A stretch of 64,000 nt of DNA from Candidatus Saccharimonadota bacterium (GTDB lineage: Bacteria; Patescibacteriota; Saccharimonadia; Saccharimonadales; JAGQMS01). Shown in pieces: positions 28,546 to 44,548 of the stretch. Position numbers and translations under genes: made by a program. The stretch spans positions 1 through 64,000 of the forward strand of contig JAGQMS010000001.1 in the NCBI GenBank assembly GCA_020428535.1, in the 5' to 3' direction. The notes under the pieces are model-generated. The model was given only the letters and a program-made list of their open reading frames with translations. It had not been told where the DNA came from and did no database searches. Every line of letters begins with the position of its first letter. The stretch's first letter is position 1.

Positions 28546-30165
28546 GTGGGCAAGATAGCGGAGTATCTACGGTCGCACTTAGATGGGGAAATAACAGATG
28601 CCAGTGATGTTCGAGAACACTTCTCGACCGATGCAGGTTTGATGAGGATTTTGCCATCAGCAGTTGTTTATCCTATTAATGATCAAGACGTTCGAAAGGT
28701 AGCGCGATTTGCTTGGCAATTGGCCGAAAAAGGTCGAAAAGTGTCTGTCACCTCAAGAGGTCTTGGTTCTGATTGGACAGGCGGTGCAGTTGGCGACTCT
28801 TTGATATTGGCGATGCCTTCGCACATGAATAAAATCCTCGAGCTAGATTCACGAAAGGGGTTCCTAACCGTTGAGGCGGGTGCAGTCATCGGCAAGATTA
28901 ATCAAACACTGATAACCCACGGTCTATTCATGCCCTGCGAGCCAATGTCGAGCGAATTCTCAACCGTTGGTGGGGCAGTTGCTACTAATGCGCGGGGCCT
29001 AAGAAGCGCAAAATACGGTACATTTGGCGACAACACAACAACTTTGAAGGTGGTTCTCAGCAATGGCGATACCATCCAAACCAAACGTCTCTCAAAACGC
29101 GAAATGAGCAAAAAGATGGGTCTGGCAACCTTTGAAGGCGAAATTTACCGAGGCCTAGACGCTATCCTAAACGAAAACCAGGAGCTACTAAATTCATTTA
29201 GCGGTATTGCCCAAAACATGCCCCTAAACATCTTTGATATTCGTCATAAAGACGGTTCTGTCGACTTAACTCCGCTATTTGTTGGCTCACAAGGCACAAT
29301 GGGCATTGTCACACAGGCGACGATTAATATTACTGGTTACAACCCATCGCTCACCCAAGTGGTTATCGGTTTCTACAAACCAGATGAGCTCGGTACGGTG
29401 ATCGAAGAGATCAAGGCTCTCAAACCAAGTATTTTCACAGTTGTTCCAAAATCTGCATTCCAGCTATTTGCCAGCTTAAACCCTCTCTATGTTGAGAAAA
29501 AGTTTGGTGAATCTCTGCCAGAATTTATTGTTTTGTTGGAGTTTGACGAATTCTCAGCAAGAATTCAAAAGCGCCACAAAAAGAAGCTAAAGAAACTTTG
29601 CTCAAAGCTTGATGTAAAGTTGATCTTTGGTGAAAACGAAAAGGTGAAGGAAGACCTCTCCAAACTGTATCGTATGCCGAATATTCTTGTGCAATCAGAA
29701 ATTGATCAAGCCAAAGCCGTCCCGGCAATTGAGTCTTGCTACATACCCAATGATCAATATCAAACAGTAATGAGCGAACTCGATCATGTTTTTACTCAGC
29801 TATCATGCAGATATGTTTCCTGGTATGAAGTCGTAACAGGTACTGCTAGGTTCTTGCCATACCTCGATCTTCGCCAACTAGGTCAGCGCCAAAAATTAAC
29901 TCGGCTAATAGAGCAGATCAAAAACACTGTCGTAAAACATGGCGGAAGTGTCGGTATTCAAGGTGGTGGTCGGCAAACAGCCAAGTATCACCGCGAAGCT
30001 CATGGCGATGTTTTGTTTGAAGTGATGGAAAAACTCAAGAAGCTATTTGACCCGTATAACATCTTGAACCCAGGTGTAAAGTTTGGTGTTGATGAAAAAG
30101 CACTCGCATCAAAGATGATTCAGGGCTACAGCCACGGCCATCGCCACAACCACTTACCAAAGTAA
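28546..30165 (+). CDS. FAD-linked oxidoreductase, GlcD/D-lactate dehydrogenase type
   Basis: The start is GTG 28546, with AAAGGA about 14 nt before it. The 539-residue product has an FAD-binding type 4 (PCMH) domain at about 35-210 (TSRGLGSDWTGGAVGDS, FSTVGGAVATNARGLRSAKYG) and a C-terminal cap ending in a typical YNILNPGVKFG. Relatives oxidise D-lactate or glycolate at the membrane and pass electrons onward; the substrate is not certain. No iron-sulfur partner subunit is adjacent. The C-terminal His-rich tail (GYSHGHRHNH) is unusual and could bind metal. Confidence 0.88.
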   Translation: MGKIAEYLRSHLDGEITDASDVREHFSTDAGLMRILPSAVVYPINDQDVRKVARFAWQLAEKGRKVSVTSRGLGSDWTGGAVGDSLILAMPSHMNKILELDSRKGFLTVEAGAVIGKINQTLITHGLFMPCEPMSSEFSTVGGAVATNARGLRSAKYGTFGDNTTTLKVVLSNGDTIQTKRLSKREMSKKMGLATFEGEIYRGLDAILNENQELLNSFSGIAQNMPLNIFDIRHKDGSVDLTPLFVGSQGTMGIVTQATINITGYNPSLTQVVIGFYKPDELGTVIEEIKALKPSIFTVVPKSAFQLFASLNPLYVEKKFGESLPEFIVLLEFDEFSARIQKRHKKKLKKLCSKLDVKLIFGENEKVKEDLSKLYRMPNILVQSEIDQAKAVPAIESCYIPNDQYQTVMSELDHVFTQLSCRYVSWYEVVTGTARFLPYLDLRQLGQRQKLTRLIEQIKNTVVKHGGSVGIQGGGRQTAKYHREAHGDVLFEVMEKLKKLFDPYNILNPGVKFGVDEKALASKMIQGYSHGHRHNHLPK

Positions 30166-30211
30166 AAAGCTCTAGCTTGCAAAATATCATCGATCGGTAT
30201 TAAATCGATTT

Positions 30212-30871
30212 ATGAAAGCCACACGTCGAAACCGCAGGCGAACAATTGGGACCGCTTTAGGTTTTGAAGTTCGACAAGCCGAAGTGCTTCGTGTTAGGGC
30301 AGATATACGAAGAAGTAAACCGGTTACTACCGGCGGTGCCGTATTGCTCGATATGCTAAGTAACTGTAATGTTCCTGGTTTTTACCCTCATGCAACAAAC
30401 ATTTTCGGTCGCCATGTTCCAGCCAATATCGAAGGCTACGAACAGGTGCAAAAAGTGTTGAAGCAAATTCTATCTGAGAATGACCGTACTAGTTCTGCAG
30501 AGTTACAAAAACTTGCGGATGCTTATCTCTATATGGGGTATATGTTTGGCAATGGGATTCGAAGAGCCAAAAGCCAACAAGTGCATGTCAGAGACATGAT
30601 CTATTATGTGCATAGCAAGCGAGGACGAGGAATTAATTTATATGAAAAGCCTGAGGAGTCTCCAGCTTCAAGGTATGATCCAATCGTTGCACTCTTAAAC
30701 CGAAGAAGTCTTTTCCCTGCAACGGCCGAACAATCTGTAGCTATCATGGTAGGTGAAGGTGCCGGATATGAAGCAACGGCGTCAGTAAGAAATTTTGGAG
30801 AACGTGTAAGCGAGTTTGGCTCAGATATGCTTCGGCTGTGTAAAGCGGTTCCATCTGATAGAAATAAGTAA
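30212..30871 (+). CDS. Hypothetical protein, 219 residues
   Basis: It starts at ATG 30212, 46 nt after the FAD gene, with a very basic N-terminus (MKATRRNRRRTIG). The rest is soluble and mostly helical (QVQKVLKQILSEND, LQKLADAYLYMGYMFGNG). No family is recognised. A bidirectional terminator follows at 30911. It may share a transcript with the FAD gene. Confidence 0.6.
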   Translation: MKATRRNRRRTIGTALGFEVRQAEVLRVRADIRRSKPVTTGGAVLLDMLSNCNVPGFYPHATNIFGRHVPANIEGYEQVQKVLKQILSENDRTSSAELQKLADAYLYMGYMFGNGIRRAKSQQVHVRDMIYYVHSKRGRGINLYEKPEESPASRYDPIVALLNRRSLFPATAEQSVAIMVGEGAGYEATASVRNFGERVSEFGSDMLRLCKAVPSDRNK

Positions 30872-30940: not shown

Positions 30941-31025
30941 TGGTGCGCGGGAGAGGACTTGAACCTCCACACCTTGCGGCACATGCACCTCAAGCATGCC
31001 TGGCTACCAATTACAGCACCCGCGC
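30941..31025 (-). tRNA. tRNA-Leu (GAG)
   Basis: The minus strand starts GCGCGGG, pairing with CCCGCGC before an A discriminator and encoded CCA. The anticodon arm CATGC-TTGAGGT-GCATG gives GAG. The T-arm is GGTTCAAGTCC and there is a class II variable arm. It lies between a terminator and the tRNA-Val promoter region. Confidence 0.95.
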
Positions 31026-38510: not shown

Positions 38511-39827
38511 ATGGAGACACGCATGTCTGATTTGCGTCGATGCATGGTTGACGGACAGCTAAGCCCAGAATTTAATCTAACACCAGACCGATCTGTCGAT
38601 CGGCGTGTCATTCCTTTGGGGCGCCTTAGTGCTATTTGCCAGACAGAATGCCCAGTTTTTGAGCAATGCATGTCAGATGTACTCAAGTGGAAGGACGCAC
38701 GGAAAGGCCCGACTAAGCTTTGGAAAACGCCTTTAGATCGGCATCTACCACTGTTCCGAGCAGGGGGAATTATGGGATCATTCGGCGACAGTAGGGCACA
38801 CATAAAAGTATCTTTGGAATCTAAAGGCTGCCTTGATAATGAAGGCATCGGTATATGCGAGGAACTCGGAGATGATTGGGGGTCGTATATCTCATTTATG
38901 GACGCTCGTGATTTGGCTGACTTTGGTGTAGTAAGTCAAGATGGTTTGATAGAGGTGGTCGATAGTGCCGACGGAGGAGTGATGGCTTTTCCCAGCCACT
39001 TTTTGGCCAGAATCGTAAATGTTTTAACGGGATATGTTTTAGACGATGGGGGTGCATTAACGAAGGCGCAATTAAAAGAGTTGGGGTTAAGTTCTAACAA
39101 CGTACTTTATTTAAATGATAGAGTACAGTGGATGGTAGGCGAAAGGCTGTTTAATGTTTCGATAACTGATAACGCAGGAAAACCGCTGAATAAGTATGTC
39201 CCGAATAGGGACGTTCTGAAAAGATTGGCTGACTTTTCAAAGGAAGTATACGCACTGCCAGCTACAAATATTAATGCAGATAAAGTTGGCGAATATAAAA
39301 AGGCAAAACGGGATTGTAATAGTTTTCTGCAGTCGACAGAAGGGAGATATGTAGATTTTGTATTCCGAATGGAAATATCCACTACATTAGTTATGCGTAC
39401 TTTGTTAGAGAATTATGAACATAGTGACGCGGGAGTAGACGCCAGGCGAAGACAGCTAATTTATTGTATCGACCGGCACTTATCTGCTTGGGGATTAACG
39501 ACAAAGGCAAGCCGTGCAAGATCAGATTTTGTTGAACTTGTTTTCGGCAATCGCGACAACTCAACTTCTCGTCCAAAAGGTGGTGCATGTGCAGGAGTAG
39601 ATCCAGAATTATTTTACCCAGATCGCGGGGAAAGCACGCAAGAACCTAAAGGGGTTTGCGGTGGTTGTAAACTGAGAACGGGGTGCCTCGAATATGCTAT
39701 AGCGAACAGAGAAAGATATGGGGTATGGGGGGGCACTTCACAAAGGGAGCGCAGAGCACTTATTGCCGAACGAAATAAGGCAGAAAATCAGGCTAAAGAG
39801 ACTGATGGGAAAAACATAGCGTCGTAA
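38511..39827 (+). CDS. Protein with two WhiB-like iron-sulfur domains
   Basis: The start is ATG 38511 (a second ATG at 38523 is possible). The 438-residue product ends in a clear WhiB domain: Cys360, Cys383-x2-Cys386-x5-Cys392, then GVWGG at 404-408 and TSQRERR. The N-terminus shows a looser copy: Cys11, Cys43-x3-Cys47-x5-Cys53, then GIMGS at 86-90 with a basic stretch. The middle 250 residues are unrecognised. WhiB proteins bind a 4Fe-4S cluster and the primary sigma factor; the family is known from Actinobacteria and their phages. Its presence here suggests transfer, perhaps from an actinobacterial host. Confidence 0.8.
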   Translation: METRMSDLRRCMVDGQLSPEFNLTPDRSVDRRVIPLGRLSAICQTECPVFEQCMSDVLKWKDARKGPTKLWKTPLDRHLPLFRAGGIMGSFGDSRAHIKVSLESKGCLDNEGIGICEELGDDWGSYISFMDARDLADFGVVSQDGLIEVVDSADGGVMAFPSHFLARIVNVLTGYVLDDGGALTKAQLKELGLSSNNVLYLNDRVQWMVGERLFNVSITDNAGKPLNKYVPNRDVLKRLADFSKEVYALPATNINADKVGEYKKAKRDCNSFLQSTEGRYVDFVFRMEISTTLVMRTLLENYEHSDAGVDARRRQLIYCIDRHLSAWGLTTKASRARSDFVELVFGNRDNSTSRPKGGACAGVDPELFYPDRGESTQEPKGVCGGCKLRTGCLEYAIANRERYGVWGGTSQRERRALIAERNKAENQAKETDGKNIAS

Positions 39828-40527: not shown

Positions 40528-41217
40528 ATGATTGTGGAGCATCATATTCAAAGGCAAATCCTTCGTGAGCTTGTGAAGGGCGAGGCCAAGCGATTTAGTG
40601 AGATTAAACCAAAAGCTGTTGAGTCTAATCTATTTATGTATCATCTCAGGCAACTCATCCGCGGTGGATTGGTGGCCAAAGATAACGAATCGTCGAAGTA
40701 CACCCTCACAAAAGAAGGTCGTCTTTATGCCGACAGAAGCAATTTGCCGACCATGAAGCTAAGGTTGCAACCCAAGCAAATTACCGTTTTGGTAGTGAGG
40801 AACAAAAAAGGTCAGTATATTCTACTCAAACGAACGCACGTACCGTATTTTGACTTTGTTGGTTTTCCGTCTGGGAAGATTCACTACGGCGAAAAACTAG
40901 AAGAATCAGCAACCAGAGAACTAAAAGAAAAATCTGGGATCGAAGATGTAAAGCTAAAGCTAGGCGGTAACATCTTGATGCGATTTTATGATGAATCAGG
41001 CGAGCTCGTTAGCCATGTGAATGCATATGTCTTCAGCGGAGAATCTGGACTAGAAGAACTAGTTTTCGAGAATGAATTTTTTGAATCATATCTTGGCGAA
41101 GCAGACCAACTCTACACTGAAAAGACTTTCAAGGGTCACAAAGAAATCATTGAACTAATAAGCCAAAGCAACGGTGAGATATTTGTTAAAGAATTTGACT
41201 TTGTATCTGACTTCTAA
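40528..41217 (+). CDS. Nudix hydrolase with N-terminal winged-helix domain
   Basis: The 229-residue product starts with a winged-helix-like region (RQILRELVKGEAKRFSEI, HLRQLIRGGLVAKD) and then a Nudix domain. The Nudix box GKIHYGEKLEESATRELKEK is nearly canonical, but the second Glu of the REUXEE core is Lys, so hydrolase activity may be altered. Such fusions (NrtR-like) can be regulators that sense nucleotides. It is divergent from the HD gene with a 98-nt gap. Confidence 0.78.
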   Translation: MIVEHHIQRQILRELVKGEAKRFSEIKPKAVESNLFMYHLRQLIRGGLVAKDNESSKYTLTKEGRLYADRSNLPTMKLRLQPKQITVLVVRNKKGQYILLKRTHVPYFDFVGFPSGKIHYGEKLEESATRELKEKSGIEDVKLKLGGNILMRFYDESGELVSHVNAYVFSGESGLEELVFENEFFESYLGEADQLYTEKTFKGHKEIIELISQSNGEIFVKEFDFVSDF

Positions 41218-41221
41218 AATA

Positions 41222-41743
41222 TCAGAGCATGATAATTCTCAAGAACTGCTTTATGTAATGCGACCCAGTTCTGGAATAGTAATCAAGTAAGTAATCTCGC
41301 ATGGCTGTAGCAGGGAATCGATAGGCTTCAATACTTGCATCATGGAGATGATGCCAATAGTGAGTAAGAGTCTCGGGTTTCAAAGGCTCTGGCAAACCTG
41401 GAACGCCGTCTCGGAGAACGACCTTCTCGATAAGCTCATCCAAGGGCTTGGCTCTGAACCTGACGATTGTTTTTTGTTTTGACAAGAAATAGAACACCTC
41501 AGTGAACGTTTCTCCTGTAATTGGGTCGTGGTCCACCCCTATGAAACGACAGCCATCAAGCCAGCCCGCATATCCGTCGTCATCTGGTTGGTAAGCGACA
41601 AGAACTTGGTGACCATGAATTGTTGCAGTAGCTTTTTCTCCGCGTCGGGCCTCTCTTTCGGTGGGTGCGAAAAGTATCTCATTCATCTCCTCAAAATTTT
41701 CTTTTGTTGCAGGGTGAATTGCGTCTGGTGCTCTTTTTTTCAT
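41222..41743 (-). CDS. Hypothetical protein, 173 residues
   Basis: AAGGAAG lies 4 nt before ATG 41743 on the minus strand. The product is soluble, with a beta-rich core (ATATIHGHQVLVAYQPDDDG, YFLSKQKTIVRF) and a helical end. No family is recognised. It converges with the Nudix gene (4-nt gap) and is divergent from leuS, sharing the upstream region with its operator-like palindrome. Confidence 0.6.
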   Translation of the reverse strand: MKKRAPDAIHPATKENFEEMNEILFAPTEREARRGEKATATIHGHQVLVAYQPDDDGYAGWLDGCRFIGVDHDPITGETFTEVFYFLSKQKTIVRFRAKPLDELIEKVVLRDGVPGLPEPLKPETLTHYWHHLHDASIEAYRFPATAMRDYLLDYYSRTGSHYIKQFLRIIML

Positions 41744-41807
41744 TTGTCTTCCTTTCTGAGAAGAGAATATCTCTAGGAGTAACTTAGGATCTAGACAACA
41801 AAACTTT

Positions 41808-41837
41808 ACTCAAAATTTGTTGAGTGAATGTTATACT
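41808..41837 (+). promoter_or_regulatory. leuS leader promoter with operator-like palindrome
   Basis: TATACT (41832-41837) is 6 nt before the leader-peptide ATG. ACTCAA (41808-41813) and TTGAGT (41820-41825) form a perfect inverted repeat with a 6-nt centre across the expected -35. A repressor or activator could bind here and affect both leuS and the divergent gene at 41743. Confidence 0.5.
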
Positions 41838-41843
41838 TTTGGC

Positions 41844-41894
41844 ATGACAAGGTTGCAAACAACCAAAACTCTCTTGCTCCCCTCGGGGGAATAA
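41844..41894 (+). CDS. Leucine-rich leader peptide of leuS
   Basis: ATG 41844 opens a 16-codon frame, MTRLQTTKTLLLPSGE, ending at TAA 41892. It has four leucines, three of them consecutive (CTC TTG CTC at 41871-41879), right before a hairpin TCCCC-TCG-GGGGA (41878-41890) followed by ATAATTTT. Another hairpin, GGTTG-CAAA-CAACC (41851-41864), lies ahead of the Leu codons. Promoter, leader peptide, regulatory codons and mutually influenced hairpins match classical ribosome-mediated attenuation by scarce charged tRNA-Leu. Confidence 0.65.
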   Translation: MTRLQTTKTLLLPSGE

Positions 41895-41954
41895 TTTTCA
41901 TTCTCTGTTGATTCAGATTACAATAACGTTATAACAATGAGCTTTCTTGTGTCC

Positions 41955-42022
41955 CGGCTGTAATGAGGCGAAGCCGAGAAGCGGAGCAAGACGTACATGA
42001 TGGTACGGCGAACGAGCATCGC
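41955..42022 (+). promoter_or_regulatory. Structured part of the leuS leader
   Basis: Three small hairpins follow one another: CGGCT (41955-41959)/AGCCG (41972-41976), CGTAC (41992-41996)/GTACG (42003-42007) and GCGA (42008-42011)/TCGC (42019-42022). A short frame (ATG 41937, 8 codons, MSFLVSRL) overlaps the first. The stretch TGGTACGGCG resembles a T-box core at 9 of 10 positions, but no specifier stem is clear. Together with the leader peptide this fills the 321 nt before leuS. Confidence 0.4.
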
Positions 42023-42064
42023 AAGCTACAACAAAATTACAGACGAGGAAATAAGGAAGATCAC

Positions 42065-44548
42065 ATGAAACGATATGAACCAAATATTATAGAGCCAAAA
42101 TGGCAAGCCAAATGGGCCGAAGACAATACATATGGAGTCACTGAAGACACTTCAAAACAAAAGATCTATGCTAGCCCGATGCTCCCTTACCCAAGTGGTA
42201 CTGGTTTACACACTGGCCATGTAAGGAACTACTCGATCACCGATGCTGTAGCCAGATTCTACCGCCAAAAAGGCTTTAACACGATGAGTAATATCGCTTG
42301 GGATGCCTTTGGTCTGCCAGCTGAGAACTTTGCTATCAAAACTGGCACTCCTCCAGCAGTTTCAACGGCAAACAATATTGCATACTTCAAAAAACAACTA
42401 CTTCGTTTGGGCATGAGTTACGATTGGAGCAGAGAATTCGATACTTCCGACCCAGAATATTACCGCTGGACTCAGTGGGTGTTTAGCTTGATGTACAAAC
42501 GAGGTCTAGCCTACAAAGCCGAAAAACAACAGTGGTGGTGCGATAAGTGCAATACGGTTTTGGCTGACGAGCAGGTCAATGCATCTGGTAAATGTTGGCG
42601 CCACGAAGGTGCAGACGACCCAGAAGTTACCAAGAAAAGTGTTAACCAGTGGTTCTTCAAAATCACCGACTATGCTGACGAAATATTGGAATCGACGGAC
42701 GCATTAAACTGGCCTGAGAAAATCAAAACCATGCAAAAAAACTGGATCGGTCGTAGCGAAGGGACGGTTGTTGAATTTGATCTCAAAGGTCTGGGTGCTG
42801 ACAAGGTCAAACTAGATGTTTTCACGACAGCAGTTGAAACTATTTTTGGGGTGACTTTTATGGTTTTGGCGCCAGAACACCCACTGGTTGCAGAATATGG
42901 TCAATTAGCAGAAAACTCTGAAGAAATAGACGCATATGTTCAAAAAGCCATCCGTAAAAGCGAGCTTGATAGAGAGATGGAAAAAGTCAAAACCGGTGTG
43001 AAGATTGAAGGTCTTTCAGCCATTAACCCTATGAATGGCAACGAAATTGAAGTCTGGGTGGCCGACTATGTAATGATGGGCTACGGGAGTGGCGCGATAA
43101 TGGCAGTCCCGGGCGAAGATCAGCGCGATTTTGACTTTGCAACGAAATACAACATCCCTGTGGTTTTCACGACCGACAGGGGCGAGTTCACAAATTACCA
43201 AGAAGAGATCAAGCCAAACAAGAAAGCGTTTATGCTTGCAAACTCAGGTGAATTTGATGGAATGAATTTTGAAGATGGCCGAAAAGCAATCATCGAAAAA
43301 ATAGTTTCGATTGGTAAGGGCGAAGCCCGAGTGCAATACAAAATTCGAGACTGGCTGATCAGCCGTCAGAGATATTGGGGCGCGCCGGTGCCAATTGTCT
43401 ATTGTGAAGAACATGGTGAAAAATTGGTCCCAGAAGATCAGCTACCAGTTCGCTTGCCCGAAGTTGACAACTACGTTCCAGATGGCAAAAACTCTTCAGT
43501 TCTCGCTGGCGTTGAAGAATGGGTGAATACGACCTGCCCAGTGTGTGGCAAACCAGCCAAAAGAGAAACCGACACCATGGATGGCTACGTTTGTAGTACA
43601 TGGTATTTGCACCGCTACACTGATGCTCATAATGACAAACAGGCATTTGACCCTGAAAAAGCCAATTACTGGTTCCCAGTAGATTTTTACTTCGGTGGCG
43701 ACCATGCTGTAGCGCACTTGCTTTACATCCGCTTTTTCCAAAAAGTACTTTGCGACGCTGGTCTTGCCAAGGACCGTGAGCCAATCAAGCAACTAGTTTA
43801 TAACGGCTACATCAATGCTGAGGATGGTCGAAAGATGAGCAAATCCTTGGGAAACACTGTTGACCCAATGGACATCATCGAGTCTGGCTACGGAGCAGAC
43901 GCTTTGCGTGTTTTTGAACTTTTCATCGCACCATATGACCAAGACACCAGCTGGAATAGCAAAGGTGTACCTGGTACGTACAGGTTTCTGAACCGATTGT
44001 GGACGCTTACTCAGGAGTTTATTGAGCAGCCAAAAGTCGAAAGTAGTAAGCCAAAAGATCAGTTCCGAGATATCTATAAGGTGGCACATACAGCTATCAA
44101 GAAGGTGACTCAAGATCTTGAGAGTTTGAGTTTTAACACTGCTGTAGCCGCGATGATGGGTGCTGTCAACGATCTATATCTTATCAAAGTCAAAGATAGC
44201 TACTCTAATACAGATGCTTGGCGGTTTGCTCTTGAAAGCCTCGCTCAACTGATCGGGCCATTTGCACCGCATATTGCCGAAGAGCTATGGCATGAACTAG
44301 GGCATAAGGATTCTGTTCATCTTGGCCATTGGCCTGAGTGGGACGAAAAATATTTGGTCAAGAACTCAGTCGTTTACGCTGTTCAAGTCAATGGTAAAGT
44401 GCGTGGTGAAGTTGAAGTCCCAGCAGGTGCTGATCAAAAAACCGTCGAAGAAGCTGCCCGCGCTAACGGAAAAGTCGCCAGCTACATAACTGGCGACCCA
44501 AAGAAAGTTATCTTCGTTCCAAACAAGCTGATCAGCTTCGTTGTTTAG
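42065..44548 (+). CDS. leuS: Leucyl-tRNA synthetase
   Basis: I choose ATG 42065 (MKRYEPNIIEPKWQAKW), with AAGGAAG 6 nt before it; the frame is open further up, but that part is the leader RNA. The 827-residue product has the class I HIGH-type site (PYPSGTGLHTGHVRNY), the CP1 editing domain (TTAVETIFGVTFMVLAPEHP, GAIMAVPGEDQRDFDF), a zinc-type CPVCGKP, and KMSKSLGNTV. It charges tRNA-Leu; two tRNA-Leu genes lie at 28344 and 30941. Control by the leucine leader is likely. Confidence 0.97.
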   Translation: MKRYEPNIIEPKWQAKWAEDNTYGVTEDTSKQKIYASPMLPYPSGTGLHTGHVRNYSITDAVARFYRQKGFNTMSNIAWDAFGLPAENFAIKTGTPPAVSTANNIAYFKKQLLRLGMSYDWSREFDTSDPEYYRWTQWVFSLMYKRGLAYKAEKQQWWCDKCNTVLADEQVNASGKCWRHEGADDPEVTKKSVNQWFFKITDYADEILESTDALNWPEKIKTMQKNWIGRSEGTVVEFDLKGLGADKVKLDVFTTAVETIFGVTFMVLAPEHPLVAEYGQLAENSEEIDAYVQKAIRKSELDREMEKVKTGVKIEGLSAINPMNGNEIEVWVADYVMMGYGSGAIMAVPGEDQRDFDFATKYNIPVVFTTDRGEFTNYQEEIKPNKKAFMLANSGEFDGMNFEDGRKAIIEKIVSIGKGEARVQYKIRDWLISRQRYWGAPVPIVYCEEHGEKLVPEDQLPVRLPEVDNYVPDGKNSSVLAGVEEWVNTTCPVCGKPAKRETDTMDGYVCSTWYLHRYTDAHNDKQAFDPEKANYWFPVDFYFGGDHAVAHLLYIRFFQKVLCDAGLAKDREPIKQLVYNGYINAEDGRKMSKSLGNTVDPMDIIESGYGADALRVFELFIAPYDQDTSWNSKGVPGTYRFLNRLWTLTQEFIEQPKVESSKPKDQFRDIYKVAHTAIKKVTQDLESLSFNTAVAAMMGAVNDLYLIKVKDSYSNTDAWRFALESLAQLIGPFAPHIAEELWHELGHKDSVHLGHWPEWDEKYLVKNSVVYAVQVNGKVRGEVEVPAGADQKTVEEAARANGKVASYITGDPKKVIFVPNKLISFVV

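Follow-up and report, generated by a model that had tools for sequence, protein, structure and literature searches.

Our analyses indicate that leuS, the gene for leucyl-tRNA synthetase (LeuRS) in a 64-kb stretch of DNA from an uncultured Saccharibacterium (the window), is probably controlled by a leucine-responsive leader-peptide attenuator of minimal, one-hairpin form. A short frame, its run of leucine codons, the abutment of this run on a terminator-like hairpin, the spacing of a -10 box and the recurrence of the arrangement before leuS in several families can be read from the sequences compared; from them we infer transcription termination, the stalling of a ribosome, a response to leucine as its signal and the direction of this response, i.e. 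more LeuRS on leucine shortage. Because a leucine leader with a terminator-like hairpin recurs before leuS in other families, the tuning of LeuRS to leucine through ribosome-sensed attenuation is probable.

Saccharibacteria have small genomes and depend on a host, and to our knowledge their gene regulation is nearly unknown. If true, the proposed device would show how a host-dependent cell senses an amino acid that it must obtain from outside, would imply coupling of transcription and translation on leaderless messages in Saccharibacteria, and would rank among the smallest known attenuator designs.

A leucine-coded leader upstream of leuS

The spacer between leuS and a divergent gene (41222-41743) measures 321 nt (41744-42064). 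We placed the true start of leuS at 42065 (MKRYEPN), in agreement with its relatives, and rejected the start at 41963 of a longer open reading frame (ORF). The encoded LeuRS has its nearest named relatives in Candidatus Saccharibacteria or Saccharimonas. Within the spacer, all the elements described in an earlier note on this DNA were recovered at their positions, namely the TATACT box, the 6-nt gap, the frame of 16 codons with three leucine codons, and both hairpins (Table 1). The leucine run directly abuts the small terminator-like hairpin, which overlaps the leader frame itself, and 170 nt separate the stop of the frame from the start of leuS. A gene for tRNA-Leu(GAG), which decodes CTC, lies at 30941-31025.

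Table 1. Features of the leuS upstream region and their positions in the window
Feature	Position	Strand	Basis or remark
-10 box TATACT of promoter P1	41832-41837	+	Sequence; leader ATG 6 nt downstream, leaderless geometry
Leader ORF MTRLQTTKTLLLPSGE, 16 codons	41844-41894	+	TAA at 41892-41894, inside the U-tract
Early hairpin GGTTG-CAAA-CAACC	41851-41864	+	RNA folds
Putative regulatory codon run Leu-Leu-Leu (CTC TTG CTC)	41871-41879	+	Sequence and comparison
Terminator-like hairpin TCCCC-TCG-GGGGA	41878-41890	+	Fold of about -6.4 kcal/mol
Short U-tract ATAATTTTC	41891-41899	+	Weak: single run of four T
-10 box TACAAT of candidate second promoter P2	41919-41924	+	Scan; 24 nt past the leader stop
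GGAGCAAGA, possible sequestered ribosome-binding site	41983-41991	+	Perfect complement of leader TCTTGCTCC (41872-41880)
Possible 23-codon ORF MMVRRTSIASYNKITDEEIRKIT	41997-42068	+	Its TGA overlaps the leuS ATG (ATGA)
Shine-Dalgarno sequence of leuS, AAGGA	42053-42057	+	Expected of a non-leaderless message
leuS, leucyl-tRNA synthetase, 827 aa	42065-44548	+	TIGR00396, E 1e-280

Three further observations concern the surroundings of the leader. The possible 23-codon ORF shares nucleotides of its stop with the leuS start, a layout that would permit translational coupling; no conservation of this ORF was found. Between the attenuator and leuS, at 41955-42045, an outer stem CGGCTGTAAT/ATTACAGACG encloses a structured insert, and 37 nt of this region (41975-42011) are similar to the sequence upstream of another leuS gene (L165; E 0.03). 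Further upstream, 38511-39827 encodes a protein of 438 aa that carries a WhiB domain at its C terminus (Pfam PF02467, E 1e-21), WhiB being a family of transcription factors known best from Actinobacteria; judged by eye, a WhiB-like end also lies directly 5' of a leaderless leuS (L089).

Distribution of the leader among Saccharibacteria

LeuRS was searched for in 295 genomes of the order, and upstream regions were compared for 115 leuS genes. This sample is not random: the first 90 genes were taken in order of similarity to the window protein (7 with the leader) and 19 in order of similarity to the protein of genome G151 (3 with the leader), while 6 of the 16 leader-bearing genes entered through the motif search. 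A leader ending in leucine codons against a terminator-like hairpin precedes these 16 of the 115 genes, which belong to families f1, f4, f25, f30 and f31, the first being the window's own family, represented by a single genome in the collection. The comparison of related upstream regions suggested in the earlier note thus recovered the layout well beyond the window, and bore out its reading of a leucine-coded leader with a terminator-like hairpin before leuS. The gene itself also varies: a LeuRS variant found in part of family f30 (L263, G151:C1:507034-509904) has about 957 aa and is some 130 aa longer than that of the window, and leuS is present twice in G202, in both cases behind a leader of its own.

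Genes with and without the leader differ in what adjoins their start codon. A -10 box matching in at least five of six positions lies 4-12 nt 5' of the leuS ATG in 73 of the 99 genes without the leader, so that leuS is normally leaderless, as against none of the 16 genes with it (P 1e-8). Conversely, a Shine-Dalgarno (SD) sequence precedes leuS in 12/16 genes with the leader and in 10/99 without it (P 1e-7). Given these differences in adjacent -10 box and SD, the two states probably mark different transcript starts.

The closest relatives of the window LeuRS lack the leader frame (G005, 73% identical; L010, 70%). Relatives that keep the promoter and lose the frame had been named beforehand as evidence against the proposal; the frame is indeed absent from both, but G005 does not represent this case, because its -10 box directly precedes leuS and the same promoter is therefore not kept. 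The leader label switches at least 10-11 times over the LeuRS tree, where the window LeuRS groups with leaderless relatives, far from that of G048, which carries the most similar leader. This patchy distribution may result from many losses, from transfer or from convergence.

Anatomy and subtypes of the leaders

In the 16 leaders the start is followed by 13-17 sense codons, and all have a GC hairpin 4-6 pairs long and a U-rich tail. Their hairpins are small, with energies of -4.7 to -9.7 kcal/mol. In 13 of them (12 of the 15 besides the window), a -10 match in at least five of six positions stands 6-10 nt ahead of the start codon, a spacing which implies a start codon at or near the 5' end of the putative transcript; the apparently leaderless leader of the earlier note may thus be described as one beginning at or near this end, 6 nt past its -10 box. 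At least two leucine codons end no more than 3 nt from the hairpin arm in 15/16 leaders, the exception (L092) having one at the arm and three earlier. Leucine accounts for 63 of the 221 leader codons (28%), and CTC for 39 of these 63, compared with 10.8% of the leucine codons in the window's genome. The N-terminal parts of the peptides vary, as do the leucine codons used (CTC, CTT, TTG, CTA, CTG); the frame, its start and the leucine run are kept.

Three subtypes can be distinguished. In the main one, subtype A (12 leaders), the frame ends in Leu-Ala-X-stop with the stop codon in the hairpin loop (CTC GCC CNN TAG GGC; TAA in G253). Subtype B (G096 and G231) ends in Leu-Leu-Pro-stop and likewise has its stop codon in the loop. 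The window leader and the sister leader MFVFNCSVVALLLPAGM, which precedes leuS of G048 (family f25), make up subtype C; both terminate in LLLPxGx, a sense codon occupies the loop, the TAA falls within the U-tract, and the end CTY-TTG-CTC-CCC-KCG-GGG-NNN-TAA is common to the two. A second -10 match (at least 5/6) occurs 21-25 nt past the leader stop in ten leaders, those of the window and nine others. The early GGTTG/CAACC hairpin was considered as a conserved part and rejected, being absent from the other leaders and probably incidental.

Specificity of the motif and the role of chance

Under a detection rule asking for a short ORF that ends at a terminator-like hairpin, with at least three identical residues adjoining the arm, the window leader is the sole match within the 64 kb. 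In the window's own genome, of which 478 kb (61%) were scanned, it alone combines a -10 box with a gene downstream. A strict pattern for subtype A, CTYCTYGCCCNNTAGGG, gave 11 matches in 393 genomes and none in the reversed control. Nine of these have leuS downstream; of the other two, that in G151 is followed by an alaX-like gene and that in G366 by a DUF2000 gene; alaX directly precedes leuS in G125, and a DUF2000 gene does so in G028. The subtype C motif TGCTCCCCNCGGGGNNNTAATTTT has exactly two zero-mismatch places in the same number of genomes, the window and G048, both before leuS. Outside the class, CTYCTYGCCCNNTAGGG matched once in 380 genomes drawn across the phylum, in a locus holding no leuS.

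It is this concentration of both motifs before leuS that makes a chance or non-regulatory origin, whether as a spurious short frame in the spacer or as the terminator of an upstream gene, very unlikely. Such an origin would agree with the absence of the frame in the closest relatives and with the fold energy of the leader stretch, which taken alone is ordinary (z -0.61). Against it, a leucine leader with a terminator arose in 1 of 3000 dinucleotide shuffles of the spacer 41744-42064, and in none of 3000 once a -10 box was demanded as well. Nor is the hairpin at 41878-41890 the terminator of an upstream gene, since the nearest upstream gene on the + strand ends at 41217 and a - strand gene lies between.

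The stop-in-loop leucine leaders before the alaX-like editing gene (L188, G151) and the DUF2000 gene (L180, G366) could point to a small leucine regulon. When the closed genome of G151 (1.45 Mb) was scanned without bias for other genes with a similar device, none was convincing besides leuS and alaX.

Separately, the window's genome holds a second leucine-rich short ORF, MTKNSIILSLVLLAQ (G000:C22 ~30087-30238; L333:10087-10238), the stop-proximal TAGCGAGTG of which is complementary to CACTCGCTA inside the strong terminator that follows (CCGGAC...GTCCGG TTTTTT), a layout closer to that of a more classical attenuator. It precedes a 75-aa ORF for which no relatives were found in 60 other genomes, and a search with its pattern returned matches only at control level.

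Mode of action and alternative explanations

According to the proposed mechanism, P1 would direct RNA polymerase to start on the A of the leader ATG or close to it, and a ribosome would initiate on the leaderless 5' end. About 35 nt further on the terminator-like hairpin would fold, its 5' arm lying directly after the leucine codons. When charged leucyl-tRNA is short, the ribosome would be held in the leucine run and would cover this arm, so that no terminator forms and the polymerase reads through into leuS; when leucyl-tRNA is sufficient, the hairpin would form and transcription would end after some 55 nt. P2, located past the terminator, probably gives a basal leuS message.

The dimensions of the element can be compared with those of coupled transcription and translation. 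In the numbering of a leaderless message, the leucine run spans nt 28-36, the hairpin extends over nt 35-47, and release of the polymerase would be expected around nt 53-57. The ribosomal P-site and the polymerase active site come no closer than 28 nt (PMC11711091). With the polymerase at nt ~55 and this minimum spacing, the A-site of the foremost ribosome falls on codon 10, the first leucine of the run; as this ribosome would also cover the 5' arm, we propose a masking of the terminator that depends on the stall. More tentatively, the element might be understood as an attenuator of about 55 nt in which the leader is leaderless, the regulatory codons coincide exactly with the place at which the leading ribosome reaches the polymerase at the termination point, the stop codon lies in the terminator loop (in the main subtype), and one hairpin and one ribosome make up the whole switch with no antiterminator.

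Several features speak against the attenuator reading: the hairpins are small, the U-tract of the window is weak, the closest relatives have no leader, and no mutually exclusive antiterminator was seen, folds of the 16 leaders giving no consistent alternative pairing with the terminator. The earlier description of the layout as textbook attenuation is consequently not upheld, given the missing antiterminator, the single hairpin overlapping the leader and the lack of conservation of GGTTG/CAACC. In such an arrangement, termination ahead of a ribosome that follows closely and is not stalled must depend on the kinetics of ribosome loading at the leaderless 5' end, and the sign of the response is not fixed, for which reason we kept as a rival a coupling-type switch of opposite sign (pyrBI-like). 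There, a close ribosome would block the terminator, and slow decoding of leucine would let the polymerase run ahead and terminate, giving less leuS when leucine is scarce. The missing antiterminator fits this rival, as does a leader that runs through the hairpin, which a close ribosome would mask whether stalled or not. We nonetheless regard it as quite unlikely, since the conserved leucine codons, two or three in number, come immediately ahead of the 5' arm, a position at which a stall hides the arm instead of exposing it, and since a synthetase gene is generally induced when its own amino acid runs short.

The leucine run is also CU-rich and SD-complementary, and might act by translational attenuation. 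It would then pair with a ribosome-binding site, either that of leuS or that of the coupled ORF at 41997-42068, until a ribosome stalled on the leucine codons frees the site, a mode of action also proposed for part of the actinobacterial LEU element. The perfect pairing of TCTTGCTCC with GGAGCAAGA in the window, a 9-bp match reached in 1.7% of shuffles (P 0.017), would suit this explanation, and minimum-energy folds pair the leucine region with the SD in five leaders (L103, L178, L179, L181 and L185); pairing of a leucine codon run with the SD of leuA has been described (PMC1262725). The predicted fold in the window, however, does not contain the TCTTGCTCC-GGAGCAAGA pairing, no SD precedes leuS in the closest sister element (G048), and cognate leader-SD pairs (-10.1 kcal/mol) were not significantly more stable than swapped ones (-9.6 kcal/mol; P 0.18). 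SD sequestration was accordingly rejected as a general mechanism over the set. As an account of the element, translational attenuation is unlikely; it could operate jointly with the terminator and is possibly an extra layer in the window. A tRNA-sensing T-box or another known riboswitch would be a natural candidate in view of the frequency of T-boxes before synthetase genes in Firmicutes, but is extremely improbable here, no Rfam family matching 41222-42400 even at E 10.

Comparison with known systems

Our search of the literature, with preprints and subscription papers outside its range, found no report of leader peptides or attenuation in Saccharibacteria or Patescibacteria, in accordance with what had been noted earlier. 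In a different phylum, leuS attenuators have been predicted in Streptomyces (Seliverstov et al. 2005, PMC1262725). These candidates are alike in combining a leucine-rich leader peptide with a terminator before leuS; they differ in that antiterminator and terminator hairpins are described, whereas the Saccharibacteria leaders show one hairpin that overlaps the leader and no antiterminator.

The closest parallels in the leader itself come from Actinobacteria. The ilvB leaders, including that of Mycobacterium tuberculosis ilvB1, likewise have branched-chain codons in a short ORF that overlaps a terminator formed by a hairpin and a U-run (PMC1262725, PMC13236596). They serve a biosynthesis operon and are longer, while in Saccharibacteria the target is a synthetase and the predicted leader transcript has only about 55 nt; for M. 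tuberculosis ilvB1, unlike Saccharibacteria leuS, an antiterminator has been proposed (PMC13236596). In mycobacteria, leaderless short ORFs coding for poly-cysteine (Canestrari et al. 2020), as they are presented in PMC13236596, are similar in that the ORF functions as an attenuator, is leaderless and is rich in the amino acid that it senses; as presented there, they belong to cysteine operons and work by translational attenuation, whereas a terminator-like hairpin follows the Saccharibacteria leader. The actinobacterial LEU element before leuA (PMC1262725) also places a run of leucine codons upstream of a leucine gene and can pair with an SD, but it has a conserved pseudoknot, and SD pairing is not supported as general in the Saccharibacteria leaders.

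With classical trp-type attenuators the proposed device would share the principle that the position of a ribosome on cognate codons decides termination; it differs in being much shorter and in having no mutually exclusive antiterminator. Leader-peptide attenuation is thus already known, and what would be new is its single-hairpin leaderless form in the phylum Patescibacteria.
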